Origin: a virus
Reading direction: 5' to 3' (one strand)
DNA: 48,228 nt
IMG/VR virus record: IMGVR_UViG_3300006947_000018
Location: 1 to 48,228 of that record
Shown here piece after piece: positions 3-23,310 of this stretch. The notes below the pieces were generated by a model. That model had not been told where the DNA came from. It did no database searches and saw only the letters and a program-made list of their open reading frames with translations. Numbering within the stretch: position 1 is the stretch's first letter; each line of letters opens with the position of its first letter. The position numbers were made by a program, and so were the translations under genes.

Positions 3-650
3 TTAGTATACGGCAATGGCGGACTAAAGTGCTGGCCTAAAGAATACACAATGACCATAAACACACATGAAGCCGCAGTAGATGGTGAAGGAATGGAGTT
101 TTGCTGGAAACTAAACTACATACAGATGAATGATATATTTTCAGAAGTACATCAAACAGCATCGCCCTTCCAAGCCTTCAGAGCAGGCTTTAGAGAAGGT
201 GTTAAATTAAGTTTAGATCAAGGTACTAGAGTAAAAGCACACGAGTTTCAAGATAAAATATGGTACGGCAACTTTAACAGACTAAATGTTTGGTGTAATG
301 TTGGCACAGATGTAGAAAACGGATGGTGGGCAATATACGGAGCACGGTTAGGTTGTGAAAAAACAATACTAAGCGACTGGGACACAAATAAAATATCAGA
401 CTACGACTGGTTCAAAGAGTTTTTTGAAAAAGAAAAAAGTTATATAGACAGCGACGAACAGTTACAAGAGAAGGCTATTGCTATCGGTAATAGAATAAAT
501 GAGGAAGTACAGGGCATGATGCTGTTTGAACCCAACGATCAAATGAGTAAATTCTTTAAAGCAACGTTCGTTAATCCTAAAAGATGGGGAGCCATGATCA
601 CTGAAAGACAAATACAAGATCTTTTAGAGAAAGGCTTAATTGGGCGATGA
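3..650 (+). CDS. C-terminal part of a repeat-type glycosyltransferase-like protein (partial)
   Basis: The reading frame is open back to the left edge, so the ATG at 51 is probably internal and the gene starts outside the window. The protein ends like the 1187-residue protein at 8931-12494. Both have a Y-G-x-G-G-(L/V)-K module end, then an aromatic/small/aromatic segment leading into FRxxFRExVKLxL, and near the end a motif of the type I-x-D-Y-x-W. This is therefore a second copy of that protein's C-terminal domain, next to a second set of radical SAM genes. The function is not proven. The family resemblance is to GT-A-like modules, which are best seen in the longer paralogue. Its stop overlaps the next start (ATGA), which indicates translational coupling. 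Confidence 0.75.
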   Translation, partial: LVYGNGGLKCWPKEYTMTINTHEAAVDGEGMEFCWKLNYIQMNDIFSEVHQTASPFQAFRAGFREGVKLSLDQGTRVKAHEFQDKIWYGNFNRLNVWCNVGTDVENGWWAIYGARLGCEKTILSDWDTNKISDYDWFKEFFEKEKSYIDSDEQLQEKAIAIGNRINEEVQGMMLFEPNDQMSKFFKATFVNPKRWGAMITERQIQDLLEKGLIGR

Positions 651-1262
651 CACAATTAGCATGGATCTTCGGACATACATCTAACTTTTCACAGGCGTTA
701 GATTCAGAGTTTAGAGACAATGGCATATCGACATATGGCTGGGGCAGAGACACTATTGACTATGCTGACTTTGATAAATTCATAGAAGGCAAAGTAGTGC
801 CTGATATTTATAGTGTTAAATGCTAACATAGAAGAACAAATAGCACTTCAAATAGATACAAAAAATTATAAAAATATCCGGGTAGAAGATATGACAGGAA
901 TGCTAACAACATATTCTCCTGTGTTTTTATTCTTTGTTAAATTAATTAAATGGTTAGAACAACAAAATAAAGAAGCAAGTATATGTGCTATCAGTAGTTC
1001 TATTACGGCCTGGCCTTATAAATCAAATCAATATGTTATGTATGCTGTACTACGGAGTATGCTACAGCAAGTCGTGTTTAGTGCGTCTAACAGCGTCACT
1101 ACAGCGTTTTGTGTCAGTCCTAGCGGTATTGGCACCCATAATATAAGTCATTACGCAAACCATGTTATAAGACTCATAAAGAATAAAACTGATTTACAAT
1201 TAATTGACCTGTCAATGACAGATCCTGTTATAGACTTAACTAGGTACAGCAATGATACATGA
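647..1262 (+). pseudogene. Short-chain dehydrogenase/reductase-like gene split by a frameshift
   Basis: An ATG at 647, overlapping the previous stop, opens a 59-codon frame ending at 826. It begins with beta-strand residues and GHTSNF, which resembles the SDR nucleotide-binding glycine motif. From about 803 the homology continues in the +1 frame, open from 798 to 1262. Joining the frames after Pro-Asp gives PD-FIVLNAN, matching the SDR 'NAG' strand, followed further on by a serine-rich strand and a Y-x3-(M)Y-A-V-L-R helix like the SDR active-site region. The only start for the second frame is a GTG at 813 inside the NAG-like strand, without a ribosome binding site, so two separate genes are unlikely. 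It could be a broken gene, a base-call error or a recoded gene. No classic slippery heptamer is visible. The end overlaps the HAD gene by 11 bases. Confidence 0.6.
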
Positions 1263-1944
1263 TTACATATTTGACGTAGACGGAACACTGACACCTAGCA
1301 GAGGAATAATGGATCCTCAGTTTAAAAAAGAGTTTATTGCTTTCGCAAATACGCATAGAGTGTTTTTAGTTACAGGCAGTGACCGACCAAAGACCATAGA
1401 GCAAATAGGCGACGAAGTTTATAACAGTTGCGTTAGAGTTTATAACTGTAGTGGCAATGATGTGTATGCTAAAGACAAGCAACTTAGTCACAACGACTGG
1501 TCCTTGCCAGCAGAAGCCGGCTTCTTTCTAGTAAACGAATTAGATAACAGCAAATGGCAAACACAAACAGGCTTACACATAGAAGACAGAACTGGCATGG
1601 TAAACTTTAGTGTAGTAGGCAGACATGCAAACAAACAACAACGAGAACACTACTATCAATACGATTTAATAGTACAAGAAAGAACTGCTATTGCTGAAAG
1701 ATTTAATACACGTTTCCCAGAACTAAGTGCGAAGGTTGGCGGAGAAACAGGCATAGACATATTTCAAAAAGGATGTGATAAATCTCAAATATTAAAAGAC
1801 TTTGACACAGACTCAATTAAATTTTATGGTGATAGGGTTGATCCAGCAGGAAATGATTATCCTTTAGCAGTAAAACTAATACAAGAACATGTATTTGCTG
1901 TAACTGATTGGCAACATACTAGGGACTTATTAGAAAATGAGTAA
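1252..1944 (+). CDS. HAD-superfamily phosphatase, phosphomannomutase-like
   Basis: This 230-residue protein has the HAD motif I DVDGTLTPSR (nucleophile Asp8 and acid Asp10), a motif II region VFLVTGSDR, a substrate-side segment GGETGIDIFQKGCDK, and a motif IV-like FYGDRVDPAGNDYP. The last two are the hallmark arrangement of eukaryotic-type phosphomannomutases (HAD-IIB), which interconvert mannose-6-phosphate and mannose-1-phosphate, and of related sugar phosphatases. The length fits that family (about 220-250 residues). It overlaps the SDR remnant upstream and the radical SAM gene downstream (8 bases), so all are co-transcribed. A role in supplying mannose-1-phosphate or a related sugar phosphate for the nearby glycan genes is inferred. 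A plain sugar-phosphate phosphatase is the main alternative. Confidence 0.75.
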   Translation: MIHDYIFDVDGTLTPSRGIMDPQFKKEFIAFANTHRVFLVTGSDRPKTIEQIGDEVYNSCVRVYNCSGNDVYAKDKQLSHNDWSLPAEAGFFLVNELDNSKWQTQTGLHIEDRTGMVNFSVVGRHANKQQREHYYQYDLIVQERTAIAERFNTRFPELSAKVGGETGIDIFQKGCDKSQILKDFDTDSIKFYGDRVDPAGNDYPLAVKLIQEHVFAVTDWQHTRDLLENE

Positions 1945-3475
1945 TTACGACCAGGCGGCAGACACAGCCAATAAGCAACTAGACGAAATAAGTCCTAGTA
2001 TGTGTTATGCCAAATGGGCTCAGGTATCAATGCACTTACACAACGGTATGACACATAGTTGTTATCACCCACCGACACATAAGATACCATTAAAAGAATT
2101 AGAAGTAAATCCTTCAGCATTACATAACACTGAAGAAAAGAAAGAACAACGTAGACAAATGTTAGCAGGCAAAAGGCCTGATGGTTGTTCCTATTGCTGG
2201 CGTATTGAAGACGTTGGCGGTAGAAGTGATAGAGTTTACAGGAGCGGCGAGTACTGGGCACAAAATTCCAGGGAAGATATTGCTGAAGCGGGGGCTGATG
2301 GAAACATTAATCCACGTTATGTTGAAGTCAATTTCAATCAAGCATGTAATTTCAAGTGTAGTTACTGCTCGCCGCACCTATCCAACGCATGGGAAAAAGA
2401 AATAAAGCAACACGGAGCATACGATATTGTTGGTGGCGAACACAATAACCTCGACAGTTTGAGAAATGCTGGGCTGATGCCTTTAAAGTTATCACAAGCA
2501 GAGAATCCATACGTTACGGCGTTTTGGCAATGGTGGCCTGAAATGTATAAAACACTAGAAGTTTTTCGCATGACAGGTGGCGAACCGTTAATGGATAGCA
2601 ATACTTTTAAAGTATTGGATTATGTATACGACAATCCAAACGCATGGTTAGAAATGAGTGTGACAACTAATATGTGTCCACCTAAACCAGTGCTGATGGA
2701 CAAGTTCATCGAATCGCTACAAAAATTAGAAAAGATACAAATATGGGAGGACCCGGAAAAGTTTAATCCAAACTCAGGGAATAACTGGTATGTAGCACCA
2801 GCATGTAAGAACTTCGCAGTATTTGTAAGTGTCGATGGCTTTGGCGAACAAGCAGAGTATATGCGTAACGGTATGGATTTTCAGATGCTACAGGACAACG
2901 TACAACGTGTTTTAAAAGAAACAGATAATACAACTATTACATTTATTAATACGTTTAACTCACTTAGTCTTACAAGTTTACGTGATTATTTACAATGGAT
3001 ACTCGACTTACGAGATCAGTATGCTAAAGATGTACAAGGAACAAAATATATTCCTATTCCAGACAATGGCGATCATAAACATGATGACTATGAAGTAAGA
3101 CCTAAGCAACGTATATGGTTTGACATTCCGTTACTTAGAGCACCACTTTGGCAATGTATACAAGTAATGCCTCAGCAGTACGAAGACTATCTAGAAGAAG
3201 CCATCGCATTTATGGAACTAAATGAGTCAAATGAAGTAAATATAGACTATAGAGGATTCAAAGATTTTGAAATAGATAAGGTCAGACGAAACCTTGCATG
3301 GATGAAAGAAGGCAGAAAAATGTCACAGGAAGATCTTATAAAAGCAAAAGCAAACTTTTTTAAGTTCTTTACACAACATGATGCTAGAAGAGGCACAGAC
3401 TTCCTAGCAACGTATCCAGAAATGGGTGATTGGTGGAATATGTGCGAACAGGCGAATGCCTTAACAGGAGAATAG
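1937..3475 (+). CDS. Radical SAM protein with N-terminal twitch-type cysteine domain (copy 1)
   Basis: This 512-residue protein carries the radical SAM cluster motif CNFKCSYC (Cys137, Cys141, Cys144) and the SAM-binding GGEP at 214-217. An N-terminal extension holds four more cysteines (Cys23, Cys42, Cys84, Cys87) that could bind an auxiliary Fe-S cluster, with a histidine-rich SCYHPPTH segment in place of the CC pair seen in the other copies. From memory this matches the 'twitch domain-containing radical SAM' family (N_Twi_rSAM), in which the auxiliary domain precedes the core instead of following it as in SPASM proteins. The substrate is unknown. It lies in an operon with a paralogue 1 base downstream, and a shared or sequential role is likely. 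Confidence 0.85.
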   Translation: MSNYDQAADTANKQLDEISPSMCYAKWAQVSMHLHNGMTHSCYHPPTHKIPLKELEVNPSALHNTEEKKEQRRQMLAGKRPDGCSYCWRIEDVGGRSDRVYRSGEYWAQNSREDIAEAGADGNINPRYVEVNFNQACNFKCSYCSPHLSNAWEKEIKQHGAYDIVGGEHNNLDSLRNAGLMPLKLSQAENPYVTAFWQWWPEMYKTLEVFRMTGGEPLMDSNTFKVLDYVYDNPNAWLEMSVTTNMCPPKPVLMDKFIESLQKLEKIQIWEDPEKFNPNSGNNWYVAPACKNFAVFVSVDGFGEQAEYMRNGMDFQMLQDNVQRVLKETDNTTITFINTFNSLSLTSLRDYLQWILDLRDQYAKDVQGTKYIPIPDNGDHKHDDYEVRPKQRIWFDIPLLRAPLWQCIQVMPQQYEDYLEEAIAFMELNESNEVNIDYRGFKDFEIDKVRRNLAWMKEGRKMSQEDLIKAKANFFKFFTQHDARRGTDFLATYPEMGDWWNMCEQANALTGE

Positions 3476-3476: not shown

Positions 3477-5132
3477 ATGCCAAGAAAGCATGACGAAACA
3501 GATAACGAATATCGCGATAGAGTAATTGATCCTATTTCGGATTCATTCTGTGCGGCAAAATGGCTTAATGCGACAATATGGTTAGGACACGGTGGAACAG
3601 CAAGTTGTCACCATCCCCCGGCGCATAATATAGACATAGAAGAAATTAAAACTAATCCTTCAGCAATTCATAACACTAGACACAAAAAGAAAATGCGTCA
3701 AATGATGTTAGAAGGCACTCGACCAAAAGAGTGTGAATATTGTTGGAAGATCGAGGACATGGAAAAAGATTCCGATGGCCACAGACCTGTAAGTGACAGA
3801 ACATTTAAAACTGTTATATACTCTGATGAAGAGATTGAAAAAATTGCTACAATGGATCCAGCAGATGATGTTAATTTAAAAACATTAGAAATTGCGTTTG
3901 ATAGAACATGTAACTTTGCTTGTTCGTATTGTAATCCAGCATTTAGTAGTACATGGGTTAAGGACGTTAGGAAGTTTGGCGGATATCAAAACATTAAATC
4001 AGACGCAAGAGGTCACTTTATTGACGATGCCCCGTATGCCGATCCGTTTGCTAAAGGCGAAGAAAATCCTTATGTGAAAGCATTTTGGGAATGGTGGCCT
4101 GAACTAAGTTTAGAGTTAGAAGAACTTAGAATTACAGGTGGCGAGCCTATGATGAATAATAGTGTGTGGGGATTATTTGAATGGTTCAAAGACAATGCTG
4201 ATATTCATCCAAATGCTAAAAACATGCGGTTTGCTGTTAATAGTAACTTAGGTGGTAAACCAGCATTAATTAATAGATTAGCAGAAGCATCACAGCATGT
4301 TAATAAGTTCCACTTATATTCAAGTGGTGAAGCAGTAGGACTTGGCGGGGAATACATTAGAGATGGTTTAATCTGGTCCGAGTGGAAACAAAATTGTGCT
4401 ATTATGTTACGCGAAGGAAACATTGAAGGTTTCCATATGATGATGACAGTTAACGCATTATGTTTAGATAGTATTGTACAATTTTTAGATTGGATTCTAG
4501 GCATGAAGCGAGAGTTTGGCGCAAGTAAGCCTAGGTTTAGTGTAAACATATTACGTTTTCCAAGTTTCCAAAGTGCGTTAACATTACCAGATCACTTAAG
4601 ACAACTGTATCACACAGAAATAAGAGAATGGCTTAACGGTGTTAGAGACAGAGACGAAAGAGATCAACACGGACATCCGTTAGTAGCAAACTGGGAAGAG
4701 GAACAGTTAACTAGACTTATTGAATATTTAGATGTTGTTAAGACACCACATAGAAATACTGCCGATAAAGATTTATTAGAACATGACTTTAGAGTATTCT
4801 ATGAACAGTACGATCAAAGACGTGGATTGGATTTTAGAAAAGCATTTCCAAGAATGGTAGAGTGGTATGATAGTTTAGAATTCACTGAATTAGTAGAACC
4901 AGAAAACGATATTCAGAAACCTAAAGGCGACAGACTAGTTGAAGTTTATGCTCATAGAGAAGTAAGCGAAGATGGTGAAGTTACTGTTGAAGAAGTAAGA
5001 CAACGTACACGAAAAACCGGTGAAAGCAAAGACGATTATGATGATACAAAGTACTCAGAAGAACCAGATTACAAAAGGGCAGGCAGTAGTATTGGGTGGG
5101 ACCCAGACGCAGATGGACTTGGTGGAAACTAA
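3477..5132 (+). CDS. Radical SAM protein with N-terminal twitch-type cysteine domain (copy 2)
   Basis: This is the nearest paralogue of the gene just upstream. It has the auxiliary-domain cysteines Cys25, Cys44, Cys86 and Cys89 with the histidine-rich SCHHPPAH segment, then the radical SAM motif CNFACSYC (Cys145, Cys149, Cys152) and GGEP at 221-224. At 551 residues it is longer than copy 1 because of a charged, low-complexity C-terminal tail (roughly residues 480-551, rich in Asp, Glu, Lys and Gly) that the other copies lack. The start has a GGAGAATAG-type ribosome binding site over the previous stop. The substrate is unknown. The shared histidine-rich N-terminus suggests that copies 1 and 2 handle related substrates or form a pair. 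Confidence 0.85.
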   Translation: MPRKHDETDNEYRDRVIDPISDSFCAAKWLNATIWLGHGGTASCHHPPAHNIDIEEIKTNPSAIHNTRHKKKMRQMMLEGTRPKECEYCWKIEDMEKDSDGHRPVSDRTFKTVIYSDEEIEKIATMDPADDVNLKTLEIAFDRTCNFACSYCNPAFSSTWVKDVRKFGGYQNIKSDARGHFIDDAPYADPFAKGEENPYVKAFWEWWPELSLELEELRITGGEPMMNNSVWGLFEWFKDNADIHPNAKNMRFAVNSNLGGKPALINRLAEASQHVNKFHLYSSGEAVGLGGEYIRDGLIWSEWKQNCAIMLREGNIEGFHMMMTVNALCLDSIVQFLDWILGMKREFGASKPRFSVNILRFPSFQSALTLPDHLRQLYHTEIREWLNGVRDRDERDQHGHPLVANWEEEQLTRLIEYLDVVKTPHRNTADKDLLEHDFRVFYEQYDQRRGLDFRKAFPRMVEWYDSLEFTELVEPENDIQKPKGDRLVEVYAHREVSEDGEVTVEEVRQRTRKTGESKDDYDDTKYSEEPDYKRAGSSIGWDPDADGLGGN

Positions 5133-5781
5133 TACTAGAACTATAGAGGCACATCTAACTGAAAAAAGTATAGGTGACGAACTCTTGGTTGAAGGAAGTA
5201 TTATTCCTAGCGACCTACGTGAAATATATCAGGATATAGTTAAACGTAGGTTTGAAGTATACCCTAACAGTGATAAAGTAAACGAATTAAATTACGATTA
5301 TCCTAGTTATGACTGGGCATCGTATCATGAATACAAATGTATTGATGTATTTCCTAATCTTAAATTAATCTTTCCTTACATTAAGCAATGTTTAGATATA
5401 GCAGGCGATGATTATAACGACTATTATTTTAAAAGTTGGATTAATGTTTGGCCTAAAGGACAAAAAATTATACCGCATAGGCATTACGGAACTTGGCACG
5501 GGTATTATGTTGTTAATGATACTGGTACTACAACATATTATACATATAAAGAAGATGGCAAGAACATGGTAGTACCGCTAAAGAACTTTTCCGGACATTT
5601 TACATTTATGCCAGCACACATATTACATTGGGCAGATGAGAACCCACAAGATGCTATGCGTATAAGCACAGGTTATAATATCAGTACATGGGAACAAATT
5701 GAAGAAGAAGATGCCGCAAATAAAAATGGCAGGGGCGGCCATATAAAAAATATAATTACACCTCTTAAGGATTTACTATGA
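5113..5781 (+). CDS. 2-oxoglutarate/Fe(II)-dependent oxygenase
   Basis: The ATG at 5113 overlaps the previous gene by 20 bases and gives 222 residues; an upstream ATG at 5020 would lie deep inside the radical SAM gene and is less likely. The core shows PHRHYGTWHGYYVVN (an iron-binding His-x-His start and the double-stranded beta-helix), then FMPAHILHWADEN (distal His), and R-x-S-x-G-Y-N-I, which provides the arginine that usually holds 2-oxoglutarate. This resembles the phage-common 2OG-FeII_5 type. It probably hydroxylates a small molecule or a protein residue; the substrate is unknown. The position between radical SAM genes suggests that it acts on the same pathway. Confidence 0.75.
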   Translation: MDLVETNTRTIEAHLTEKSIGDELLVEGSIIPSDLREIYQDIVKRRFEVYPNSDKVNELNYDYPSYDWASYHEYKCIDVFPNLKLIFPYIKQCLDIAGDDYNDYYFKSWINVWPKGQKIIPHRHYGTWHGYYVVNDTGTTTYYTYKEDGKNMVVPLKNFSGHFTFMPAHILHWADENPQDAMRISTGYNISTWEQIEEEDAANKNGRGGHIKNIITPLKDLL

Positions 5782-7190
5782 GTAAGATAAAACCAATATG
5801 GGAACACGGCGCAGTTAGTCCAGAATCACCTAACAAGGTATTTTGTACTGCTCCATGGACACATACTTATATTAGTCCTCAATCAGAAAGACGAATGTGT
5901 TGTGCTAGTAGAGAAGAACATCAATTTCAAAAACAATATATTGATGCTAGTAATGACGAAAAGTATGGTGAAGTAAGAGAGTCGGGTACTATTGATGATT
6001 ACAAACCTGTTAGTTTAAAAGAACATTGGAATTCACCTTACATGATGGACATAAGAAAAAAACTTATGGCAGGCGAAGAGATACCGCAATGCGATGTGTG
6101 TAATGACAGTATATTAAGTAGCAGTACCTACCGCCAATGGTTTACTGGTTTCTTATTTGAAGATAAAATAGATCAGTGTTTTGACAGCACGGATGAAGAT
6201 GGTAGAACTACAATGGAACCTATTAGTTTCGATTATAGGTACAGTAACTTATGTAACTTTAAGTGTCGTATGTGTGGTGAGCAACTTAGTTCAGCCTGGG
6301 AAACAGAAAAACGTAAACACGATCTGTGGACACCAGAGCAACAACCGTTTATGGTTCCTGAAAATAAAAAGATTATTCAAAAGTTTCAAAAAGAAGTAGT
6401 AGAAGAAGAGTTTTGGGAGTACATCAAGTCAGGTACAGTAGAAGAATTGTATTGGGTTGGTGGCGAACCACTTATGTATGACATACATTGGAAGTCAATG
6501 GATAGACTAGCAGAAGATGATAACTTAAAGAAAGTACATTTACGTTATAACAGCAACCTAAGTAGAGTAAGATATAAAGATTATTACTTATACGACTGGT
6601 TACCACAAGCAAAAGATTGGACTATGTGTGCTAGTATAGACGCAACAGGACCAATTGGCGAGTTTGTCCGCACAGGACTTGTTTGGGAAGAATGGGATAG
6701 AAACTTTCGAGAAGGTGTAGCACTACCAGGTGGTCATGATAAAATGATAATGGACTTAACATTAACAGGTCCGGGTATGTTTGATTTAAAAAACTTCCTT
6801 GACTATGCGTTAGAGTTAGATGTTAAGATAGAAACAAAACGTATGTTTGCGTTTCATCCAGATATTGTATTATCACCTATGGCATGGCCTAGACACATAC
6901 TAGATGAAATTGTAAATGATGTTTTAGATTATGCTAGACCAAGAGTTACTGAAAAACAGCAAACACTTATTAGAGAATTAGAAAGTATGCTAACTTCGCC
7001 TACATTTCAAGAACAGTTTCCTGATACAGCAAACGAACAATTCTTTAATGGTAGAGCGTATCAACATATAATACACAATATTCGAAAGGATGGGCAAGAC
7101 GGTCGTCTTACATTAGGTGATATTTACAGAGAACATAAGGAACTTTGGTTATGGTTTAGTAGACCTGATCCAAAACACAATCAACGTTAG
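5778..7190 (+). CDS. Radical SAM protein with N-terminal twitch-type cysteine domain (copy 3)
   Basis: This 470-residue protein has an auxiliary domain with CTAPW (Cys23), a CC pair (Cys41-Cys42) and CDVC (Cys105, Cys108). The core motif is CNFKCRMC (Cys159, Cys163, Cys166), and GGEP lies at 228-231. The 'C-x-x-P-W ... C-C' pattern is that of SPASM/twitch Fe-S domains, here N-terminal. It starts with an ATGA overlap on the oxygenase. It is the last gene of the + strand run, and its final 4 bases overlap the stop end of a small gene on the other strand, so the two transcripts converge without a visible terminator. Confidence 0.85.
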   Translation: MSKIKPIWEHGAVSPESPNKVFCTAPWTHTYISPQSERRMCCASREEHQFQKQYIDASNDEKYGEVRESGTIDDYKPVSLKEHWNSPYMMDIRKKLMAGEEIPQCDVCNDSILSSSTYRQWFTGFLFEDKIDQCFDSTDEDGRTTMEPISFDYRYSNLCNFKCRMCGEQLSSAWETEKRKHDLWTPEQQPFMVPENKKIIQKFQKEVVEEEFWEYIKSGTVEELYWVGGEPLMYDIHWKSMDRLAEDDNLKKVHLRYNSNLSRVRYKDYYLYDWLPQAKDWTMCASIDATGPIGEFVRTGLVWEEWDRNFREGVALPGGHDKMIMDLTLTGPGMFDLKNFLDYALELDVKIETKRMFAFHPDIVLSPMAWPRHILDEIVNDVLDYARPRVTEKQQTLIRELESMLTSPTFQEQFPDTANEQFFNGRAYQHIIHNIRKDGQDGRLTLGDIYREHKELWLWFSRPDPKHNQR

Positions 7191-7330
7191 TTTGCGAGAG
7201 TGCCAAACACACCAATTACTATTAAGCCAACTGTCCAAACGTTGGCTCCAAATATAGCAAGAAATAGTACTGCCCAAATCCAAAAATTGAAACTTAGGAC
7301 AAAACTGATAATTGAACTAATAATACCCAT
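7187..7330 (-). CDS. Small membrane protein, 47 residues
   Basis: The start codon at 7330-7328 overlaps the stop of the upstream gene as TAATG, which argues strongly for a real, coupled gene. Almost the entire product is hydrophobic, with two probable membrane helices (about residues 4-12 plus 18-30, and 33-44), and it is rich in Ile, Val, Phe and Trp. There is no recognisable family. It could be an inner-membrane accessory protein, or holin-like by size, but nothing specific supports lysis function. It ends inside the convergent radical SAM gene. Confidence 0.6.
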   Translation of the reverse strand: MGIISSIISFVLSFNFWIWAVLFLAIFGANVWTVGLIVIGVFGTLAN

Positions 7331-7746
7331 TATCTTGTGTAGTAAGACTCACAAAGTGGGTCCATATAACTTGGTGTATTAACAGACTGAGTTACAGTAA
7401 TTGTCTTACCGTTGTAAGGACTAACTCCAGTCGTAGTAATCATTGGCTCAATCGCCTCGTAATCAACAACTGACATAACAACATAGTTGTTAATATCAGC
7501 ACAATGAGTTCTACCAAGAGCAACGTCAGTGGCATTTCTATAAGCATTATACTTAGGTGCCATATACTCTTTTTCACCATTGTCAACATACTCATTGACT
7601 TGAGCAATCGCTGTAGCATAGTACTTCATTGTACGAGTGATTCCAGCCTTAGCCGCACCAGCATTTTTATACTGAGTGGTGCCCCAAGATGTCTTATTTG
7701 GCTCTCTGTGGATTGAACTATTCTTCTTACTTACTATTACAAACAT
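7330..7746 (-). CDS. Hypothetical phage protein, 138 residues
   Basis: I do not recognise a domain. The protein is mixed polar, with tyrosine- and asparagine-rich stretches and no signal peptide or membrane helix. It follows a full promoter (TTGACC, 17 bases, TATAAT) and a TAGGAG ribosome binding site 6 bases before the ATG, so it is well expressed and probably early. It is translationally coupled to the small membrane protein downstream. Confidence 0.7.
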   Translation of the reverse strand: MFVIVSKKNSSIHREPNKTSWGTTQYKNAGAAKAGITRTMKYYATAIAQVNEYVDNGEKEYMAPKYNAYRNATDVALGRTHCADINNYVVMSVVDYEAIEPMITTTGVSPYNGKTITVTQSVNTPSYMDPLCESYYTR

Positions 7747-8120: not shown

Positions 8121-8279
8121 TTACCAATTATGGATATTTCCAGCAATAATGACGAAACAAGTGACAAAATTAACCAGTACAATTACACTTCTAATGATTG
8201 CTATTTTGTCTGCTTCACTGTCAGTAGAGCCACTCTTTTCCCCTAGGCTCTTGGCCCAGATTCTCCAAAGGTTTTTCAC
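8121..8279 (-). CDS. Small membrane protein, 52 residues, GTG start
   Basis: The GTG at 8279-8277 overlaps the TGA of the methyltransferase gene as GTGA. The product starts KNLWRIWAKSLGEKSG, a basic/aromatic amphipathic segment. It continues with an acidic linker and one membrane helix (about residues 28-47: isoleucine, valine, phenylalanine), ending in a short GNIHNW tail. I think similar small proteins occur in cyanophage genomes, but cannot name a function. It is the last gene of the long - strand run. Confidence 0.65.
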   Translation of the reverse strand: MKNLWRIWAKSLGEKSGSTDSEADKIAIIRSVIVLVNFVTCFVIIAGNIHNW

Positions 8280-8956
8280 TTGTAGCCTATTTGCATAAAT
8301 CTTGTATAAGCAGGTGTTATCAACTGCCCTACAAAATGTGTTTTAGATAGAGGGTATTTAATACGCATATCTTCGATATCGTCACATGGATTAATGTGAC
8401 CCTCGAAGTCTTTGCTATTGTTAGTTTGCATAACAATTAATTGATCATCGTCTGCTGATTCAAACCATTCTGTGTCCATGTGTTCGCAACTGGTGTTAAT
8501 AACACAATCAGGCTTAACTCTAATTAGTTCTCCGCCTGTGGTAAATTCCATATTATTTGTCGCTATGACCGACATGTCTGCTACCACACCTTTATATTTC
8601 CAAAAATCGTGTACATACTTTTGATTAAGTTTTTCAGATAGTTCTATTGCGATTGGGTCTACATCAAAACCGTATATGCGTTCTATAGTCAATGCTTTAT
8701 GAAGTGGCTCAACTAACGTTCCAATCCAGCAACCTAAAATAGCAACTGTCATGTTACTCGGCAATGGAGTAACTCGATATAGTTCTCCTAATAACCAAGT
8801 CTTACTTGCTAATTGTCCTTTACTAAATGCGTCTCGCGGATACACACCTTGATGCTGTATAATATGTTCGAACCAACTAGGGGAAGGTCTCCAAAATCCA
8901 TTGTCAATGTACTTTGTTACTTGTTCCCAATTATTTAATGTTATTGTATCGTTCAT
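8276..8956 (-). CDS. Class I SAM-dependent methyltransferase-like protein
   Basis: This 226-residue protein has a Rossmann-type methyltransferase core: VAILGCWIGT (residues 71-80) is motif I, the SAM glycine loop, with Cys-Trp in place of the usual acidic or glycine residues, and YGFDVDP (95-101) is the acidic strand that binds the SAM ribose. CVINTSCEHM may be the motif IV region. The substrate is unknown. It overlaps the 1187-residue repeat protein by 26 bases and ends the tailoring operon, so O- or N-methylation of the same product is a reasonable inference. Confidence 0.7.
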   Translation of the reverse strand: MNDTITLNNWEQVTKYIDNGFWRPSPSWFEHIIQHQGVYPRDAFSKGQLASKTWLLGELYRVTPLPSNMTVAILGCWIGTLVEPLHKALTIERIYGFDVDPIAIELSEKLNQKYVHDFWKYKGVVADMSVIATNNMEFTTGGELIRVKPDCVINTSCEHMDTEWFESADDDQLIVMQTNNSKDFEGHINPCDDIEDMRIKYPLSKTHFVGQLITPAYTRFMQIGYK

Positions 8957-12494: not shown

Positions 12495-12729
12495 GTCGTT
12501 TGTGCTCTGCTACTATGCTGTCTATTACAGTACTAATATGTTTAACTTCCATATCTATACCATCGTATCTTTTTTGTAATTCTGCGCCATACACAGGACA
12601 TACGCCTTTATGGTCTGGTAACTTGCCACCACAGGTATTACATCGACCCTGGAGTTTAAGTTTAATCGTCCTTAATATGGACCGGGACGTTATATGTGTC
12701 TTCGAATATTCTCGCATCTGTCTCATCAT
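12487..12729 (-). CDS. Small zinc-ribbon-like protein
   Basis: Up to 80 residues with a CNTCGG...GVCPVYG segment (Cys-x2-Cys and a third Cys about 13 residues on; His and Tyr nearby), which looks like a half zinc ribbon, followed by a helical, charged C-terminal part. The start is uncertain. The only ATG codons lie within the carbamoyltransferase gene (12729, 12726, 12717), giving an overlap of about 55-70 bases. Its stop overlaps the start of the giant repeat protein by 8 bases. The function is unknown. Confidence 0.6.
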   Translation of the reverse strand: MMRQMREYSKTHITSRSILRTIKLKLQGRCNTCGGKLPDHKGVCPVYGAELQKRYDGIDMEVKHISTVIDSIVAEHKRHV

Positions 12730-15969: not shown

Positions 15970-17438
15970 AAGTATGTATTTAGGAACTTGAACAGATGAT
16001 TCATTATTGGTTCCTTGTCGTAAAATCTCCTATAGTTATGTATAATTTTATCCAATGTATTGCTGTTAATCCGCGAACGGTCAAAGTTTTTTATGATCTC
16101 TAGGAATGTATTATAACGTATATTGTGATCTAAGTCAAGATCGTATTGCGACGAACAGTTAAATTCTTCATGGAAGTTTTCAAAGCCTTGATCATTTAAA
16201 ACTTTGCTTGTACCTGGCATACCAAACGGTATAAACATATGGCCATATTGTATTGGCTTATATACTTTTTCTGTAAGAAATGCTCTCCATGGTTTAGGCG
16301 TTACATCTTTTATTAGTACTTCAGGATACGAATCAATAAATGACGGCTCGTAATAAGTTTCTACAGCAATAGAGTATATAGAGTTTTTATATATGTCATT
16401 TGAAAAACTTCTATCATTTAACAGGTCAGGCGTATTGTCTTTTAGATTAACCTTAACTGTTTCTTCTAACTCGGGTATAATCATTTGTTCTGGGTATTTT
16501 TTTAAGTTACTAAGTATCTGCTTAGGTGTCGTATTGTACATTGCTAACTCGTCAATCATTCGCGGTGAATGGAAATGCTCATACCATAGTTCTGCTATTA
16601 CTGGTTGAACAATATGCTGTTTAGCAGGATATTGCCAACGTCTTGATACATAGTTATTTTCAAGTAAGTTATTATCTCTTAAATCATCAAGTAATGCCAT
16701 TCTATGAAATCTAGGTCTATTATTTAAACAAAGAAAATCCTTAGATTTTTCAGCATTGAAATTTTCTATAATTTGTTCTTCAGATGTTTCATTTGTTATG
16801 TGTGTATACGATCCTCTATGATTAGTTATGCCTGAAGAGGCAACTAGTACTTCATTAATTCTAAAGTAATTAAACGTATCAATGTTAACGCCTGTATATT
16901 CTGTAAACGCCTTAGGTATATTATCAGTAGGTTGTGTTTTGTCGCCACCTACAATAAATGTAAAGTTTTTGCCAATCTCAAAAAGATCATTCAATATTTT
17001 TAAAACAGGATAGTAGTATGTAAACGTAAATGCTTCGAAGGACGCATCAATTAAAACAGGACATTGGATACTAGTAAGTTTCTTAACATCTTCGTTTGTA
17101 AGGAACACTAAATCGTCAGCATGTATAAAAACTATATCAGGCTTTGATAGCAGGTCATTATCATCTAGTGATAATCCTTTACTGATATATGTATGAGGAC
17201 CATGTCCAGCAACTCCGCGGACGCCTAGGCTTCCAAACAAGTGTGGAATATGCGGTATGCCTCTTGATGTATTTGTAAAATAGGAAACACCTGAATTTAA
17301 ATCTCCGCAAAAGATTTTCTCTTCAATAATAGGTGGTTCACTACACCAGGAAGGCTGTATAGTTAAGTATTCCTCAAAAATAGGATTTATAATTTTTCTA
17401 TCGGCTAAATCTATCCAAGCAATTCGTATATCACTCAT
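15966..17438 (-). CDS. Putative glycosyltransferase, paralogue B
   Basis: The start is set at the ATG 17438, which overlaps the radical SAM stop by 8 bases; an upstream TTG at 17450 is possible but weaker. The product is 490 residues. It shares FLCLNNRPRFHR, F-(L)-T-E-K-V-Y-K-P-I-Q-Y-G-H and L-x-x-x-G-F-E-N-F with paralogue A, in the same order, so the two are tandem duplicates that have diverged. They probably transfer two different sugars, or extend the same chain, in the pathway encoded by this operon. The family assignment rests on the C-terminal box and on context only. Confidence 0.65.
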   Translation of the reverse strand: MSDIRIAWIDLADRKIINPIFEEYLTIQPSWCSEPPIIEEKIFCGDLNSGVSYFTNTSRGIPHIPHLFGSLGVRGVAGHGPHTYISKGLSLDDNDLLSKPDIVFIHADDLVFLTNEDVKKLTSIQCPVLIDASFEAFTFTYYYPVLKILNDLFEIGKNFTFIVGGDKTQPTDNIPKAFTEYTGVNIDTFNYFRINEVLVASSGITNHRGSYTHITNETSEEQIIENFNAEKSKDFLCLNNRPRFHRMALLDDLRDNNLLENNYVSRRWQYPAKQHIVQPVIAELWYEHFHSPRMIDELAMYNTTPKQILSNLKKYPEQMIIPELEETVKVNLKDNTPDLLNDRSFSNDIYKNSIYSIAVETYYEPSFIDSYPEVLIKDVTPKPWRAFLTEKVYKPIQYGHMFIPFGMPGTSKVLNDQGFENFHEEFNCSSQYDLDLDHNIRYNTFLEIIKNFDRSRINSNTLDKIIHNYRRFYDKEPIMNHLFKFLNTYL

Positions 17439-18651
17439 CGCATAACTCAACTAATCGAGGGAATATCTCACGCCAATTCTGCTCTCTGATTTTGTCGAGT
17501 TGATCATTGTAAACTTTAAACTTTAGCCAACCATCCTCGTCCCATTCATCATTATCAAACATGGATAATAGATTTCCTAGGCTATGGTTATTACCAAAGT
17601 CAGTTCTAAACTGTGAGTGTATCTGTGTTCTTGCTTCTGGGTGTATTATCTTAGGACTTAAAAACGAAGGATCGTATACATAATTTAAATGTACATGTAA
17701 GCCTAACTCTCTTGTTGCCCACTTGTGAAACTCTCCTAAATAAGGATAGTTATAAGCACTTACGGTTTGACATATACTGGTTTCAATCCAATCCTCTGCC
17801 ATAATTTGCTGTAAGTGATTTGTTACTGTTTCCCAATCACTTGGGTATCTAATATAATGATTGCGTTCTGCTAAATCGTCTATACTAGCACTAACTTGTA
17901 TTTTGCCAAACTGTTTCCATATATCAAATGTTTTTTCTGGTAAGTTTGTCATATTAATATTATACCATAGAGTCATATCCTTTGCTCTTCCGGAAACTAT
18001 TAATTTTTCTAAATATTCCCAATGCTTTTTAATTAGTGTTGGCTCACCGCCATTGATATATACTAATTCTAAATTGGGTGCTGATTCGAATAAGTCGTCC
18101 CAAAAATTATCTTCTTCGGGCCACTTGTATTCGTCTTTGTCTATGTTACCATATTTAGTAACGAAGTCCAAAGTTGCTTCAATTTTCTTATAATCATTGC
18201 GCCACTGAGATGAACTTGCTGGATTACAAGTACGACACCTGACATTGCACAAATTACCAAGACGAAGCTCAACAAAACGAAGATCCATATCAATGTGGCC
18301 ATCTTCCCCCACAAGGTCCTTTGCTCGTACATGGTCGAAGTGTTTAAAAACTTCAGCCTCGGACTGTCTCTTACTTGTAATTCCTTTCCTTTCTTCATCA
18401 TAACACCTCGTACATGCGGCAGGTTCTTCGTCATTAAGCATTTGTAGTCTGACTTCTTTATAATAGTCAGAATTCATAATTTGCTCTATGCTATGGTTAT
18501 TTAAATCTAACCATTCATTTCCACCGTCTTCTCTATTGTTTTTACTTCTACTTGCTCCATTTTTGTGATCACTTATACAGCATAACGTACATCCACCATG
18601 TGGGTGCGTTGCCAAATGTGTAAATGGCAGAGGGCAATAAGTTTTACTCAT
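17431..18651 (-). CDS. Radical SAM protein with N-terminal twitch-type cysteine domain (copy 4)
   Basis: This 406-residue protein has an auxiliary region with CPLPF (Cys6), Cys21, Cys24, Cys25 and CTRC (Cys80, Cys83). The core motif is CNVRCRTC (Cys135, Cys139, Cys142), and INGGEP has GGEP at 201-204. The end is short, without a C-terminal SPASM domain, as expected if the auxiliary domain is N-terminal. Its start overlaps a tiny ORF as ATGA, and its stop overlaps the glycosyltransferase start. The substrate is unknown. It is closer to copy 5 than to copies 1 and 2, judging by the CC pair and the CRTC core. Confidence 0.85.
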   Translation of the reverse strand: MSKTYCPLPFTHLATHPHGGCTLCCISDHKNGASRSKNNREDGGNEWLDLNNHSIEQIMNSDYYKEVRLQMLNDEEPAACTRCYDEERKGITSKRQSEAEVFKHFDHVRAKDLVGEDGHIDMDLRFVELRLGNLCNVRCRTCNPASSSQWRNDYKKIEATLDFVTKYGNIDKDEYKWPEEDNFWDDLFESAPNLELVYINGGEPTLIKKHWEYLEKLIVSGRAKDMTLWYNINMTNLPEKTFDIWKQFGKIQVSASIDDLAERNHYIRYPSDWETVTNHLQQIMAEDWIETSICQTVSAYNYPYLGEFHKWATRELGLHVHLNYVYDPSFLSPKIIHPEARTQIHSQFRTDFGNNHSLGNLLSMFDNDEWDEDGWLKFKVYNDQLDKIREQNWREIFPRLVELCDE

Positions 18652-19109: not shown

Positions 19110-20339
19110 TTATATACTTATCATGTTATCCTTTAGTACTTCAAAAAGTTCTGTAAATGTATCCTCAAAACTTTCGTCTCTGTATACATCTCCTGCTTTA
19201 ACCTGTGCCACAAACATTCTCCAATGTTCATCAGTACTTTCTGTACCGGCGTGTGCTACTAATGGTGATATGTCCTTGTCGTATTTTATTTGGTCCCAAG
19301 CAGGTAATCCATGTTTTTCAGGATTAGTAACTCTGTCCATAATTGTTTCTTTTAATGGTGAAGGAACGACATTTGCTTCACACCATTCTGGAAAATGTAC
19401 TAGATTATTCCAAATCATAAATTCAGGGTATTCTGTTTCAAAGAAATGATGAAACTCTCTTAGATAAAAGAAGTTCCACACACTTACGGTATGTGTAACA
19501 TTTATGTTAACATGATCGTGCTCAGTGTGTAACTTATAAAATTTGTCTAAGTTTGCTAATACATTATTATCCCAACTATCTCCGTGACGCAGATAATCAA
19601 ACTTTTCTGCTACGCCATCTAAACTTATATTGAACCCTAAGTTCTCAAAGTTGCCTACAATTTTATCTATCAGTTTGTCATTGTAGAATGTTCCGTTAGT
19701 GCTGAGAGTAATCATTATATTTTTGCTTACTCCCATGTCAACTAACTTGTCAATGAGTTTACGAAACTCTTTCATATAGAAAGGCTCGCCTCCCATTATT
19801 TCTAAAACTTTTACATGTGGTAACCAATCTTCTATATCTAACCAGAACTTAGAATTTTCTAAGTCGTGTAAATCTATTTTCGAAGGTGGCTCCCAAAATG
19901 ATATTTCTCTATCAATTGATTCCTTTCTCCATTTACTGCTGTAATTTGCATTACAAGTTCTACATTTCAAATTACATGCGTTACCTAGTATAAGTTGATA
20001 ATCCCGCGGCATATCGGGTTCAGCCTCGTAATCTATTCCATCTGGGTATCTCCATTCTGCGTAACCATTGTATAATTGTCGTTTAGACTCCTTACCGTTG
20101 TCTTCGTCTATCCAACATGTAGCACAATTCTCTGGCTTGTTGCCTTCGCGAATTTCATGCCTTAAATCTTTCATATAATCACTATGAAAAATATCTCTAA
20201 TAGAGTCTTCCCCTAACGTGTAGTCTGAGCCGTCCGGTCGCGATATTCTTTCACGAGCAATACAGCAACTTCGTAAAGTTCCGCCTGGTTCGTTACTGAG
20301 GTGTGTCCACAGTAGACTACAATGTTTAGGTTCGCTCAT
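19110..20339 (-). CDS. Radical SAM protein with N-terminal twitch-type cysteine domain (copy 5)
   Basis: This 409-residue protein has an auxiliary region with Cys7, a CC pair (Cys25-Cys26) and CATC (Cys72, Cys75); the core is CNLKCRTC (Cys122, Cys126, Cys129); IMGGEP has GGEP at 183-186. It overlaps the PLP-enzyme gene by 14 bases, so the two are likely to act in one pathway. The shared length and motif spacing with copy 4 point to a duplication, with three small genes now in between. Substrate unknown. Confidence 0.85.
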   Translation of the reverse strand: MSEPKHCSLLWTHLSNEPGGTLRSCCIARERISRPDGSDYTLGEDSIRDIFHSDYMKDLRHEIREGNKPENCATCWIDEDNGKESKRQLYNGYAEWRYPDGIDYEAEPDMPRDYQLILGNACNLKCRTCNANYSSKWRKESIDREISFWEPPSKIDLHDLENSKFWLDIEDWLPHVKVLEIMGGEPFYMKEFRKLIDKLVDMGVSKNIMITLSTNGTFYNDKLIDKIVGNFENLGFNISLDGVAEKFDYLRHGDSWDNNVLANLDKFYKLHTEHDHVNINVTHTVSVWNFFYLREFHHFFETEYPEFMIWNNLVHFPEWCEANVVPSPLKETIMDRVTNPEKHGLPAWDQIKYDKDISPLVAHAGTESTDEHWRMFVAQVKAGDVYRDESFEDTFTELFEVLKDNMISI

Positions 20340-21240
20340 ATTCTTCTACTAACAACTTTGATATACAAAGTCTAGTTAAATCGTTTCCTCTATTAAAACT
20401 GTCGTGTTTTGTTTGATTGCTTTGGGCAAATATAATACAGTTAGTTGGTTTCAACTGTAACCTATTACATACTACCATGTGCGCCTTCATATACTTGTTA
20501 GGTATATAATCTGGTCCCCACGCACTCATGGCATACTCGCCAATCATAGCACCAAAGTTATTTACTATACCGTGTTGATTAGCAAACAATACAGCATCGT
20601 CTATTTCTTTACGTTGTAAACGTATGCCTGCTCTTGCTCCTATGATAGGAAACGTTTTGCCTAAACTAAACGTAACTTCCTCTACACACGGTTTATCTAT
20701 GTTAATACTTATGCCATAGCACATACCAAAGTAGGCCATATCTATTAAAACAGGCACATTATTATGTGTACACCAGTCAAGTAATTCATTCATGTCTTCT
20801 TTTACACGACCAGTATCGCTAAAAGGACAACTGATAATTACAGCATCGCCTTCTTGAACTTGCTCGTAATTATAAATCCATGACCATTTAGCATCTAAAT
20901 TATTACTAGCAACTTTGTGCATCATAAAGTCACCTTTATAAAACTTAAAGGTTTTTTTGCTATGTCTTTGCATGAACATACTAAATGCTTCACTGGTTCC
21001 GTTAGTTTGTGTAACATGCGGAAAAGCATCTAAGCCACTGATAGTATTTAACTGGCTACTTCTAATCCATCTGCCAAACATTTCTACAAACTTTTCTCTA
21101 TGATCTGTTACGCCATCCGCGGCAAAGAAGTCTCGCCACTCATATGTGCTTTCACAGAAATCTCTAAGTTCCCATGTAATGTCTTTGTCCTGAATTGCAT
21201 ATCCACCGTTAAGTGGTCCGCTGTAGTTATACTCACTCAT
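20326..21240 (-). CDS. PLP-dependent aminotransferase-like enzyme (fold type I)
   Basis: This 304-residue protein has TQTNGTSEAF (the phosphate-binding loop before the cofactor), PVLIDMAYFG (Asp167, pairs with the pyridine nitrogen) and SLGKTFPIIGARAGIRL with Lys195 as the Schiff-base lysine and a downstream Arg. The order matches class I/II aminotransferases. At about 300 residues it is shorter than the usual 380-400: the N-terminal arm and the C-terminal domain appear reduced. It may be an aminotransferase, or a lyase or decarboxylase of the same fold. It is coupled to the oxygenase upstream and the radical SAM gene downstream. Confidence 0.75.
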   Translation of the reverse strand: MSEYNYSGPLNGGYAIQDKDITWELRDFCESTYEWRDFFAADGVTDHREKFVEMFGRWIRSSQLNTISGLDAFPHVTQTNGTSEAFSMFMQRHSKKTFKFYKGDFMMHKVASNNLDAKWSWIYNYEQVQEGDAVIISCPFSDTGRVKEDMNELLDWCTHNNVPVLIDMAYFGMCYGISINIDKPCVEEVTFSLGKTFPIIGARAGIRLQRKEIDDAVLFANQHGIVNNFGAMIGEYAMSAWGPDYIPNKYMKAHMVVCNRLQLKPTNCIIFAQSNQTKHDSFNRGNDLTRLCISKLLVEEYERT

Positions 21241-22021
21241 CGCTTTCTAATTTTCCATGTCCGTATTCATTTTCTAAATGGTAAGGTTGATCGGCATCTT
21301 TATCGTACCAATACAAACTTTTGTGTGGTGGATCTCTCCAATCATGCTTACTGTCTGCTATGTAGTAAAATAATCTAAACCCTACTCTAAACCTGTCCTC
21401 AGGACATGTAATAGGATTAGGGTGTCCGTGGAATCCACGTTTGTGATATTTCCAAATAACAACATTACCCATCTCTGGCGGATAACTTACAACCTTATGA
21501 GTTTTATCAAAATCCCAAAACTGTAAATCTCCGTGCCATTCTGGATCCCAGTCAGGTGTAAAGTATAATATTAAACTTAACGCTCTGTGCGTTTGGCATT
21601 CTTCATTCCAGTTAAAGTCGGAATGTATCTTAAGGCTATCGCCCTGAAAACTTTTCATATAACCAGCACCGACTAAATATGGGTCTGGTAATAAATGCGG
21701 TACGTCACATACCTTCCTTAGCCAACCTAAAAACTCTGGACTATGTAAAGCACTAACAAGTTGCCTAGCCACCGGCGCATGTTCTAGTTCCTTGCACTCT
21801 TCCATGTAACTTTTTGCCCTAGTAAATGTAGTCCAATGCTTTTTAGGTATTGTAATACTTTCTTCATACAATGCTTTACTTACTTCTGCTGGTATAAAAT
21901 CATTTAAGGCAAGGGTTGGATAAGGTGGGGTATAGCGATACTGCTCATTTAATTTAAGCATCTCGTTATCACTGCCCCACTTATCGTGTATGTGATCAAT
22001 TATAAGTTGATCTATGTTCAT
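21233..22021 (-). CDS. 2-oxoglutarate/Fe(II)-dependent oxygenase (prolyl-hydroxylase-like)
   Basis: This 262-residue protein has KIHSDFNW (iron ligands His133 and Asp135), a strand-rich LSLILYF, then GFHGHP (distal His198 or His200) and RFRVGFRLFYY, where Arg211 would bind the 2-oxoglutarate carboxylate. This is the classic HxD...H...R layout of the P4Hc/2OG-FeII_3 group. The substrate is unknown and could be a sugar, amino acid or peptide. It starts as TAATG on the dehydrogenase stop and overlaps the PLP gene by 8 bases. Confidence 0.8.
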   Translation of the reverse strand: MNIDQLIIDHIHDKWGSDNEMLKLNEQYRYTPPYPTLALNDFIPAEVSKALYEESITIPKKHWTTFTRAKSYMEECKELEHAPVARQLVSALHSPEFLGWLRKVCDVPHLLPDPYLVGAGYMKSFQGDSLKIHSDFNWNEECQTHRALSLILYFTPDWDPEWHGDLQFWDFDKTHKVVSYPPEMGNVVIWKYHKRGFHGHPNPITCPEDRFRVGFRLFYYIADSKHDWRDPPHKSLYWYDKDADQPYHLENEYGHGKLESDE

Positions 22022-23310
22022 TATGCTCCTCTAGTGTTGCCGTAATGGATAACCTGAACACCTGTAATGTCAGGCGTCTTTCTCCATGGGTCAACTACGA
22101 TACTTCCATTCGCAAAACTTAACTCTGTTCCGTTACCAGTCTTGACACTTAATGCTTCATCGCAATCTGTGACATTATGCTCACCATACCAATTAGGCAC
22201 CGTATCAAGTTGGTCACCGTATGTGACTCCTGGGTTATGTGCTAATAAGTATACTGCTGGATTGTTTAATACATCCTCCGGCGGCGTGTCACCAGTTTGT
22301 TCGTCATAGTAATACAATGGATGCCCTTGGGCAACAACATAGTGACCTACAAGCATACTACTAGAACCACTTTCATATGGCACTAATGGTTTGTATGCTT
22401 TACCTACTATAACTATAGGTATGTCATTTGCTAAGTCTAGCAATCTTTTTGCCATGTTCTCTGCTTGTACTTCTCTTGAAAGCATTACAGCATCAAACAA
22501 ATCGTATCCTAAGCCTAAGTTTTCAGCCATCCAACGTAACGCGATATTATCTCTAGGGTGACAAGCACCGCCATCGCCCATGCCCGGCTTCATGTACCCA
22601 GGTCCCATAATACGTCTGTCTGAATTTGCCAAAGCATCGCACACAACTTCTGCGTTAATGTTGCCTGACGCTTCTGCTACGTCTTGTATCATATTAACTA
22701 AACTAACTTTCGCTGATATAAATGTATTATAGAAAACCTTAATACATTCGCATTCGTCCCATGTACCTATAACATAGTTTGGGTCGTTTTGCATTATTGT
22801 TTTGTAGAAGTCTACTAGTTCTTTTGCGTCACCAGTTTCACTTCCATCTTCTGTTCCAATCATTACCATTTCTGGATTAACCATATCCCACTTCACAGTA
22901 CCCATAGCAATTAAGTATGGATTGTACACAAAGCGAGTGTTAGTCATTAGAGGAATAAATTCTCTTCTTACAGTACCAGGCAGTACTGTCGATATAAGGA
23001 CTATTAATTGTTCTTGGGTCGCTACAGCATTTACTTTACTAAGAATGTCTTTAACTATTGTATAATCAAAGTCCTTGTTTGGTAAATGGCTGGTAGGTGC
23101 CTTGCCATCATACTGTGGGTCATGTGGTGTAGGTACTGCGATAAAAACAATTTCTTGTCCTCTTACAGCATCTTCCATATTATCAACCATTGTAAAGTTT
23201 TCAGGCTCTACTGGGTTAACATCATAACCAACAACATCATGGACCTCGGCGACCATTTCGGCGCAGGCTTGTCCTAACTTACCTACTCCGATGAATCCGA
23301 TTGAGGCCAT
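22021..23310 (-). CDS. UDP-glucose/GDP-mannose dehydrogenase family protein
   Basis: It starts at the ATG 23310: GGAG ends 6 bases before it and abuts the other ATG at 23316. The product is 429 residues with the NAD-binding IGFIGVGKLG, FIAVPTP, the VLISTVLPGT strand, a central helix region KVFYNTFISAK (conserved Asn/Lys), and GGACHPRD with the catalytic Cys250 (GGxCxPxD). It oxidises a nucleotide sugar at C6 to a uronic acid. The C-terminal third (VIVGKAYKP) is the UDP-binding domain. It is the first gene of the long - strand run and could feed the glycosyltransferases with a uronic acid donor. Confidence 0.9.
   Translation of the reverse strand: MASIGFIGVGKLGQACAEMVAEVHDVVGYDVNPVEPENFTMVDNMEDAVRGQEIVFIAVPTPHDPQYDGKAPTSHLPNKDFDYTIVKDILSKVNAVATQEQLIVLISTVLPGTVRREFIPLMTNTRFVYNPYLIAMGTVKWDMVNPEMVMIGTEDGSETGDAKELVDFYKTIMQNDPNYVIGTWDECECIKVFYNTFISAKVSLVNMIQDVAEASGNINAEVVCDALANSDRRIMGPGYMKPGMGDGGACHPRDNIALRWMAENLGLGYDLFDAVMLSREVQAENMAKRLLDLANDIPIVIVGKAYKPLVPYESGSSSMLVGHYVVAQGHPLYYYDEQTGDTPPEDVLNNPAVYLLAHNPGVTYGDQLDTVPNWYGEHNVTDCDEALSVKTGNGTELSFANGSIVVDPWRKTPDITGVQVIHYGNTRGA

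Follow-up and report, generated by a model that had tools for sequence, protein, structure and literature searches.

Conserved order and late-promoter-like motifs mark a radical SAM and glycosyltransferase-like gene cluster in a group of tailed phages

The window analysed here, 48,228 bases in length, is the whole of IMG/VR virus record IMGVR_UViG_3300006947_000018, a fragment rather than a complete genome, and its first 23 kb hold two converging runs of genes for radical S-adenosylmethionine (SAM) enzymes, glycosyltransferase (GT)-like proteins and sugar-tailoring enzymes. The order GT-A/rS1/rS2/rS3/(UGD)/rS4/(carbamoyltransferase, repeat GT) is kept in about 60 related viral contigs, and in the open-access literature we found no paper that describes this conserved core, the order of its genes or the promoter. 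A sequence-only reading of the window had proposed that the genes form a single pathway for making and decorating a product that contains sugar; the fixed gene order and the companion families, which are sugar-nucleotide and sugar-tailoring enzymes, support this. We infer that the enzymes all work towards the same product, a glycan, attached to a virion protein, for instance the tail fibre; to this reading, in which a late, cytoplasmic phage pathway builds and tailors that glycan, we give an even chance. The genes that carry the argument are:

3..650, + strand: rep5, a GT-A-like glycosyltransferase, C-terminal two thirds, cut by the window edge (homology to full-length relatives)
1937..3475, + strand: rS1, N-terminal-twitch radical SAM protein (NF033640, 321.8 bits), the first radical SAM gene after the GT-A gene in relatives
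3477..5132, + strand: rS2, N-terminal-twitch radical SAM protein (NF033640, 303.3 bits)
5778..7190, + strand: rS3, N-terminal-twitch radical SAM protein (NF033640, 298.2 bits)
8931..12494, − strand: REP, repeat protein with a C-terminal GT-A-like domain (sequence; rep5 homology)
12662..14200, − strand: O-carbamoyltransferase of NodU/TobZ type (PF02543 7e-41, PF16861 2e-51)
17431..18651, − strand: rS4, N-terminal-twitch radical SAM protein (NF033640, 362.8 bits)
19110..20339, − strand: rS5, N-terminal-twitch radical SAM protein of a multi-copy group (NF033640, 296.1 bits)
22021..23316, − strand: UGD, UDP-glucose-type sugar dehydrogenase, first gene of the minus run (PF00984 4e-18, PF03721 3e-14)

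All five proteins first read as N-terminal-twitch radical SAM enzymes belong to one family, N_Twi_rSAM (NF033640), scoring 296.1–362.8 bits against a cut-off of 170. The CxxxCxxC motif of the AdoMet cluster and four N-terminal cysteines of an auxiliary cluster are intact in every window copy, and these seven cysteines are 95–98% conserved across the 199 sequences from which a family tree was built. The window copies fall in different ortholog groups of that tree. The rS3 clade holds one copy per locus from 29 loci (support 1.0), the rS4 clade spans 31 loci (1.0) and the rS2 clade 25 loci (0.86); the rS1 clade, with 20 loci, has a support of only 0.37. Several copies per locus characterize the rS5 clade (41 sequences, 26 loci, support 0.985). 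Such clustering is far beyond chance, because related viral records each hold 5–20 N_Twi_rSAM members, as in the 59 kb record of locus L051 with 20.

Relatives were retrieved with rS4 as bait and, in a second retrieval, with the GT-A protein rep5 as an independent bait; the rep5-bait loci are the best-matching ones and include some near-duplicates, and the fractions given for them are not population estimates. The T4-type major capsid protein gp23 (PF07068) was present on 12 of the 17 related records scanned, and we take the group to be marine T4-like tailed phages, in part jumbo-sized. Their cluster genes for the most part share a single strand and run rep5, rS1, rS2, rS3, UGD, (OGb, PLP), rS5, rS4, where OGb is a 2-oxoglutarate (2OG)-Fe(II) oxygenase and PLP a pyridoxal-phosphate-dependent enzyme; further radical SAM or GT genes follow, then the carbamoyltransferase and REP. 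rS3 is present in 58 of 61 rS4 loci. The group does, then, occur together in other genomes, as would be expected of a system, and the opposite prospect, that its members occur independently, describes only part of it: the core GT-A/rS1/rS2/rS3/rS4 is constant, whereas UGD, OGb, PLP and the carbamoyltransferase come and go.

In the window and its close relatives (L007–L010, L029), the block bearing rS3 lies on the opposite strand, beyond the methyltransferase gene. Since this block is flipped relative to the single run found elsewhere, the converging runs are most simply explained as one ancestral run that was split, partly inverted and relocated in this lineage; a few relatives (L045, L049) carry inversions of their own. 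We rejected the idea that the two runs arose when a gene set was duplicated, as the radical SAM copies belong to separate ortholog groups and the cluster of relatives is a single run. The earlier claim that both runs carry the same classes is thereby recast: they are not duplicates but two parts of one run.

The position of the cluster in relatives links it to the tail. Around rep5, a small gene (u119) and a GT-like gene lie upstream in 70/70 viral loci with enough upstream sequence, a tail-fibre-like gene lies a few genes upstream in 66/70, and a second GT-like gene is found in 63/70; N_Twi_rSAM genes occur within 10 kb in 45 of the 61 viral loci with enough downstream sequence. Genes upstream of the cluster are annotated by PHROGs as tail-fibre and virion-structural genes. 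Built from the two upstream GT-like genes, a profile matches glycogenin (GT8, E=1e-4), which is a protein-glycosylating enzyme. Outside the cluster, a sulfotransferase gene (29215–30120, − strand) stays near the cluster in close relatives. Genes of rep5 type were also seen in Tateyamaria, Ruegeria and Cribrihabitans contigs (L099, L103 and L104, near position 10,000), with no N_Twi_rSAM neighbours in the stretch retrieved.

A short motif shared with structural genes suggests when the cluster is expressed. In seven structural-gene regions, 24 of 32 occurrences of GATAAATA sit 18–110 bases upstream of an open reading frame (ORF; 1.0 expected), and in 17 cluster loci the same holds for 22 of 25 (0.9 expected); control octamers of similar composition are rarely so placed. 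Known late promoters read TATAAATA in T4 and NATAAATA in cyanophages (PMC2984593). Unlike GATAAATA, the T4 form is rare in these viruses and hardly found upstream of ORFs. Most relatives carry GATAAATA 43–64 bases before UGD, and a hairpin of at least 5 bp directly follows it in 18 of 21 distinct UGD leaders, which come from related viruses and are not independent (7.5 expected in shuffles). The hairpin stems differ in sequence between relatives, and the structure may protect the 5′ end of the transcript. The cluster is therefore probably late-expressed. The two elements of the window are:

23333..23353, − strand: 8 bp hairpin (GTGTACTA/TAGTGCAC), probable 5′ end of the UGD transcript (leader comparison)
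23357..23364, − strand: GATAAATA, late-promoter-like motif of the UGD run, read 23364–23357 (motif search)

Divergent from the UGD run, an ORF at 23494–24804 (+ strand) has its own GATAAATA at 23431, a signal-peptide-like start, a CxxCH motif and a weak cytochrome c match (PF13442, 8e-4); it possibly encodes a phage periplasmic cytochrome-like protein.

To survey the chemistry, 139 different cluster-region families were tallied against Pfam, leaving out radical SAM and rep5 proteins. Many members match nothing, and the recognisable families are mostly sugar enzymes: NeuB (6e-60), a DegT/DnrJ/EryC1 aminotransferase (6.5e-61), epimerases, GDP-mannose dehydratase, UDP-glucose dehydrogenase, carbamoyltransferase, a sugar-type C-methyltransferase and sulfotransferase, together with methyltransferases and 2OG oxygenases. 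By a simple hydropathy count, three or more membrane segments are predicted for only 6 of the 970 ORFs in the cluster regions, and five of these form one family of ~255 amino acids. No flippase, polymerase or membrane-bound GT, no Wzx/Wzy, Gtr-type or ABC-type membrane protein and no exporter was seen in the cluster regions.

The most serious competing explanation is that the cluster makes or decorates lipopolysaccharide (LPS) or capsule sugars of the host, which would block superinfection or keep progeny from being recaptured. Three families of the cluster, NeuB, RmlD and carbamoyltransferase, are ones that O-antigen loci commonly contain. The GTs of the pelagimyophage host-recognition cluster, which stand beside radical SAM cassettes, have likewise been interpreted as host-surface modifiers (PMC7029224). 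Host-surface modification nonetheless sits poorly with the lack of Wzx/Wzy, Gtr-type or ABC-type membrane proteins in the cluster regions, with a late-promoter-like motif common to cluster and structural genes, and with glycogenin-like GTs adjoining the tail fibre, and we consider it unlikely, if worth serious attention. Because of the tail-fibre position, the late motif, the glycogenin-like GTs and the scarcity of membrane proteins, a virion acceptor is favoured, and the glycan is more likely destined for the virion than for the host surface or DNA.

The GT-like assignments themselves draw support from predicted folds, GT-B for one protein of the minus run (GTa) and GT-A for the ORF at 3–650 and the C-terminus of REP. 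The former ORF is 33–67% identical to full-length proteins of 307–333 amino acids directly upstream of rS1 in relatives. The family has invariant D-x-D-N and NGLxYGNGG motifs, and D64 and D66 of the D-x-D are invariant in 22 full-length homologues; the cut window copy is without this part. An AlphaFold2 (AF2) model of the homologue from L014 (predicted local distance difference test, pLDDT, 84) has Foldseek matches mostly to GT-A enzymes, and the rep5 profile gave only chance-level matches among PDB sequences. REP comprises about ten degenerate units, W-[VIL]-[DE]...P...HxW...GGvkL.P, before a C-terminal GT-A-like domain (residues 968–1187) that is homologous to the rep5 family (domain E=1e-16); the units appear to be shorter, degenerate copies of the central part of a rep5-type GT-A domain. 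Of the two repeat-type GT-like proteins originally proposed, only that at 8931–12494 is thus a repeat protein, the ORF at 3–650 being the C-terminal two thirds of a single GT-A-like protein cut by the edge. The AF2 model of GTa (pLDDT 70) has UGT2 (2e-4), PimB′ (1e-3) and BshA as top Foldseek matches; the protein itself has the conserved motifs FxCLNNxxKxHR and TEKTxK. The proposed pair of GT-like paralogues, GTa and GTb, accordingly gains a GT-B-like predicted fold for GTa, with no Pfam or PHROG match for either protein.

These pieces suggest a model of the pathway. Sugar nucleotides would be made or changed by a phosphomannomutase-like HAD enzyme and UGD, and in relatives by NeuB, epimerases and the DegT aminotransferase. 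Soluble GTs would assemble the chain; in relatives these are the rep5-type GT-A and the two glycogenin-like GT8 proteins, here REP and the GT-B-like proteins. rS1–rS4 could then perform a constant set of radical reactions, either on the sugars or on the chain, while rS5-type copies, 2OG oxygenases, the PLP enzyme and carbamoyl-, methyl- and sulfotransferases may add variable decorations. A bolder proposal, possible but less probable, is that a large group of T4-like phages uses radical SAM enzymes, four of them conserved and many variable, to make a glycan of the virion (tail fibre) and so diversifies the sugar coat of its particles. To our knowledge, no virus has been reported to diversify the sugar coat of its particle by radical chemistry. 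If the pathway does decorate virions, few phage particles would have so rich a sugar chemistry, and it would bear on receptor binding and on surface variation among marine phages.

Several observations weigh against the glycan-on-virion model. Its weak point is the acceptor, for which none of the four supports is direct: only relatives show the tail-fibre anchor, the window ending inside rep5; late expression also fits a late change of the host surface; and soluble GTs build LPS core as well, which makes missing membrane proteins compatible with a host-surface product. The Foldseek scores of rep5 are modest (best E=1.9e-3, template modelling score ~0.3), rS3 and rS5 have no solved-structure relative among PDB sequences, and we found no known substrate for any N_Twi_rSAM member. 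Two Bdellovibrionia metagenome-assembled genomes (MAGs) each hold at least ~20 N_Twi_rSAM members over the cut-off, including a ~30 kb chromosomal island between housekeeping genes in which the profiles used detected no GT; N_Twi_rSAM is then not strictly tied to glycans and may serve other products in bacteria. That island (L213–L214, G039:C1:745,513-774,880) carries over ten N_Twi_rSAM genes along with genes for a PLP enzyme and an amidinotransferase-like protein, with no multi-spanning membrane protein inside, and the second MAG has a similar set.

SPASM/twitch radical SAM enzymes often act on peptides, and the window proteins have weak NCBIfam matches to peptide maturases, both of which would suit a radical modification of a virion protein in the manner of ribosomally synthesized and post-translationally modified peptides, the GTs merely co-travelling. 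With sugar enzymes as neighbours, no PqqD/RRE-like domain among the Pfam matches of the window proteins and no clear conserved precursor peptide noticed, this is improbable. We regard as distinctly improbable that the enzymes place decorated sugars on modified DNA bases, although DNA-hypermodifying GTs encoded by viruses are known (Pyle 2024, cited in PMC12619734) and the window has genes for a QueE-like protein and GTP cyclohydrolase I. Modified DNA must be in place by the time of replication, whereas the cluster follows tail-fibre genes in relatives and bears late-promoter-like motifs; moreover, 20 kb separate it from the deazaguanine genes, which form part of a different run. The QueE-like and GTP cyclohydrolase I genes stand side by side (43551–45118, − strand), suggesting a 7-deazaguanine DNA modification separate from the glycan cluster. 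Least probable is a diffusible, aminoglycoside-like small molecule made during infection. The carbamoyltransferase has both its N- and C-terminal domains (PF02543, PF16861), aligns with TobZ over residues 2–498 and has TobZ, GdmN and the novobiocin carbamoyltransferase as nearest solved structures (4e-47 to 2e-59), which lends some support to the earlier idea of antibiotic-like sugars; tail-fibre anchoring in relatives, the late-promoter-like motif and the lack of any exporter in the cluster regions make the small-molecule tailoring that had also been suggested less likely.

Radical SAM cassettes near phage tail fibres have been reported before, in the pelagimyophage host-recognition cluster (PMC7029224), a hypervariable T4-like tail-fibre region with GTs that is likewise placed directly after tail-fibre genes, as seen here in relatives; the fixed GT-A/rS1/rS2/rS3/rS4 core and the late-promoter-like motif set the present cluster apart. 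HTVC008M has no N_Twi_rSAM. A marine T4-like environmental genome with 12 radical SAM genes, TARA_ERS488813_N000010 (PMC5332604), was compared by its description only and is discussed there as a case of Fe-S metabolism, with no glycan pathway or layout. Mycobacteriophages Che8 and Rita encode GTs that presumably modify their virion proteins with sugars (Freeman 2023, cited in PMC11256854), but these GTs are few, and no radical SAM, oxygenase or carbamoyl chemistry is described in the text consulted. Chloroviruses and mimiviruses, which are eukaryotic viruses, encode sugar-nucleotide enzymes and GTs for viral glycans, the radical SAM set going unmentioned in the available part of PMC4691112. 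Gtr serotype conversion and Wzx/Wzy O-antigen systems differ in having a membrane flippase, polymerase or membrane-bound GT. Late expression together with structural genes, expected of a phage virion glycosylation system, is hinted at by the late-promoter-like motif.

A tblastn search with the repeat GT, GTa, the rep5 GT-A, one GT8-like protein and u119 gave no match in 50,697 phage records; in cultured phages, tblastn thus detected neither the repeat GT nor the rep5 GT-A nor the upstream GT8-like gene that served as query. Vibrio phage K566 (OZ196521), which is in culture, does have N_Twi_rSAM genes, and two GT8 genes and one GT4-like gene alternate with them, which gives the pathway reading independent support. 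Only two of its five N_Twi_rSAM copies exceed the cut-off, and neither rep5 GT-A nor REP was detected in the retrieved stretch (L209, 161,548-170,335). KVP40 has three weaker members, one near a gene annotated as a PF00534 match, and TATAAATA was not found in the retrieved K566 and KVP40 stretches. K566 is a possible laboratory model whose smaller version of the cluster makes the pathway testable now. Phage radical SAM genes have so far been counted as loose auxiliary genes; here four form a fixed, ordered and probably late-expressed set tied to the tail-fibre locus, so that what looked like an assortment of unusual genes becomes a pathway open to testing, and a large, uncharacterised enzyme family would gain a functional setting.

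The remaining features of the two runs are:

813..1262, + strand: ORF of 149 amino acids between the GT-A gene and the phosphomannomutase-like HAD gene (no Pfam or PHROG match)
1252..1944, + strand: phosphomannomutase-type HAD enzyme (PF03332 1.1e-21; solved phosphomannomutase structures to 3e-24)
5020..5781, + strand, start probably near 5113: OGa, 2OG-Fe(II) oxygenase (phrog_81 8e-14)
7330..7746, − strand: ORF of 138 amino acids at the junction of the two runs (no family match)
8276..8956, − strand: putative methyltransferase (PF08242 E=0.0076, below cut-off; conserved in 8 loci)
12487..12729, − strand: small CxxC zinc-ribbon-like protein (weak PF13240; in 7 loci between the carbamoyltransferase and REP)
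14389..15969, − strand: GTa, glycosyltransferase-like protein (GT-B-like predicted fold)
15966..17450, − strand, ATG start near 17438: GTb, GTa paralogue (~20% identity, shared invariant residues)
20326..21240, − strand: PLP-dependent aminotransferase-like protein, short at 304 amino acids (PF00155, Aminotran_1_2, 4.4e-9, residues 124–233 only)
21233..22021, − strand: OGb, 2OG-Fe(II) oxygenase (PF13640 8.3e-12)

Profile matches uphold the initial calls of two 2OG-Fe(II) oxygenases, a UDP-sugar dehydrogenase (UGD also matches phrog_9148 at 6e-98), a carbamoyltransferase and a phosphomannomutase-like HAD. The PLP enzyme remains a weak call, matching Aminotran_1_2 over a partial stretch and no solved structure, as does the methyltransferase. 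PHROGs names a function for few cluster proteins and leaves most without one. OGb is 66–87% identical in 20 viral loci; the place of OGa is taken by a NeuB-like gene in locus L111, and the 138-amino-acid junction ORF has a 76% identical homologue in the same position in L006.

Overlaps of 1–26 bases, originally described for most of the cluster, hold at most junctions, with three exceptions: a 458-base gap (18652–19109), a 188-base gap (14201–14388) and the region between the runs (7191–8275); the minus run spans 8276–23316 and not 8121–23310 as first given. The 458-base gap contains no recognisable gene and no detectable remnant of the 150-amino-acid membrane-protein-like gene found there in L007. 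One weak terminator candidate between the runs did not rise above shuffles, and a tRNA search of the window found none. Beyond the cluster at 3–23310, the minus strand carries a third 2OG-Fe(II) oxygenase (36980–37570) and an NAD-dependent sugar epimerase (46534–47523).

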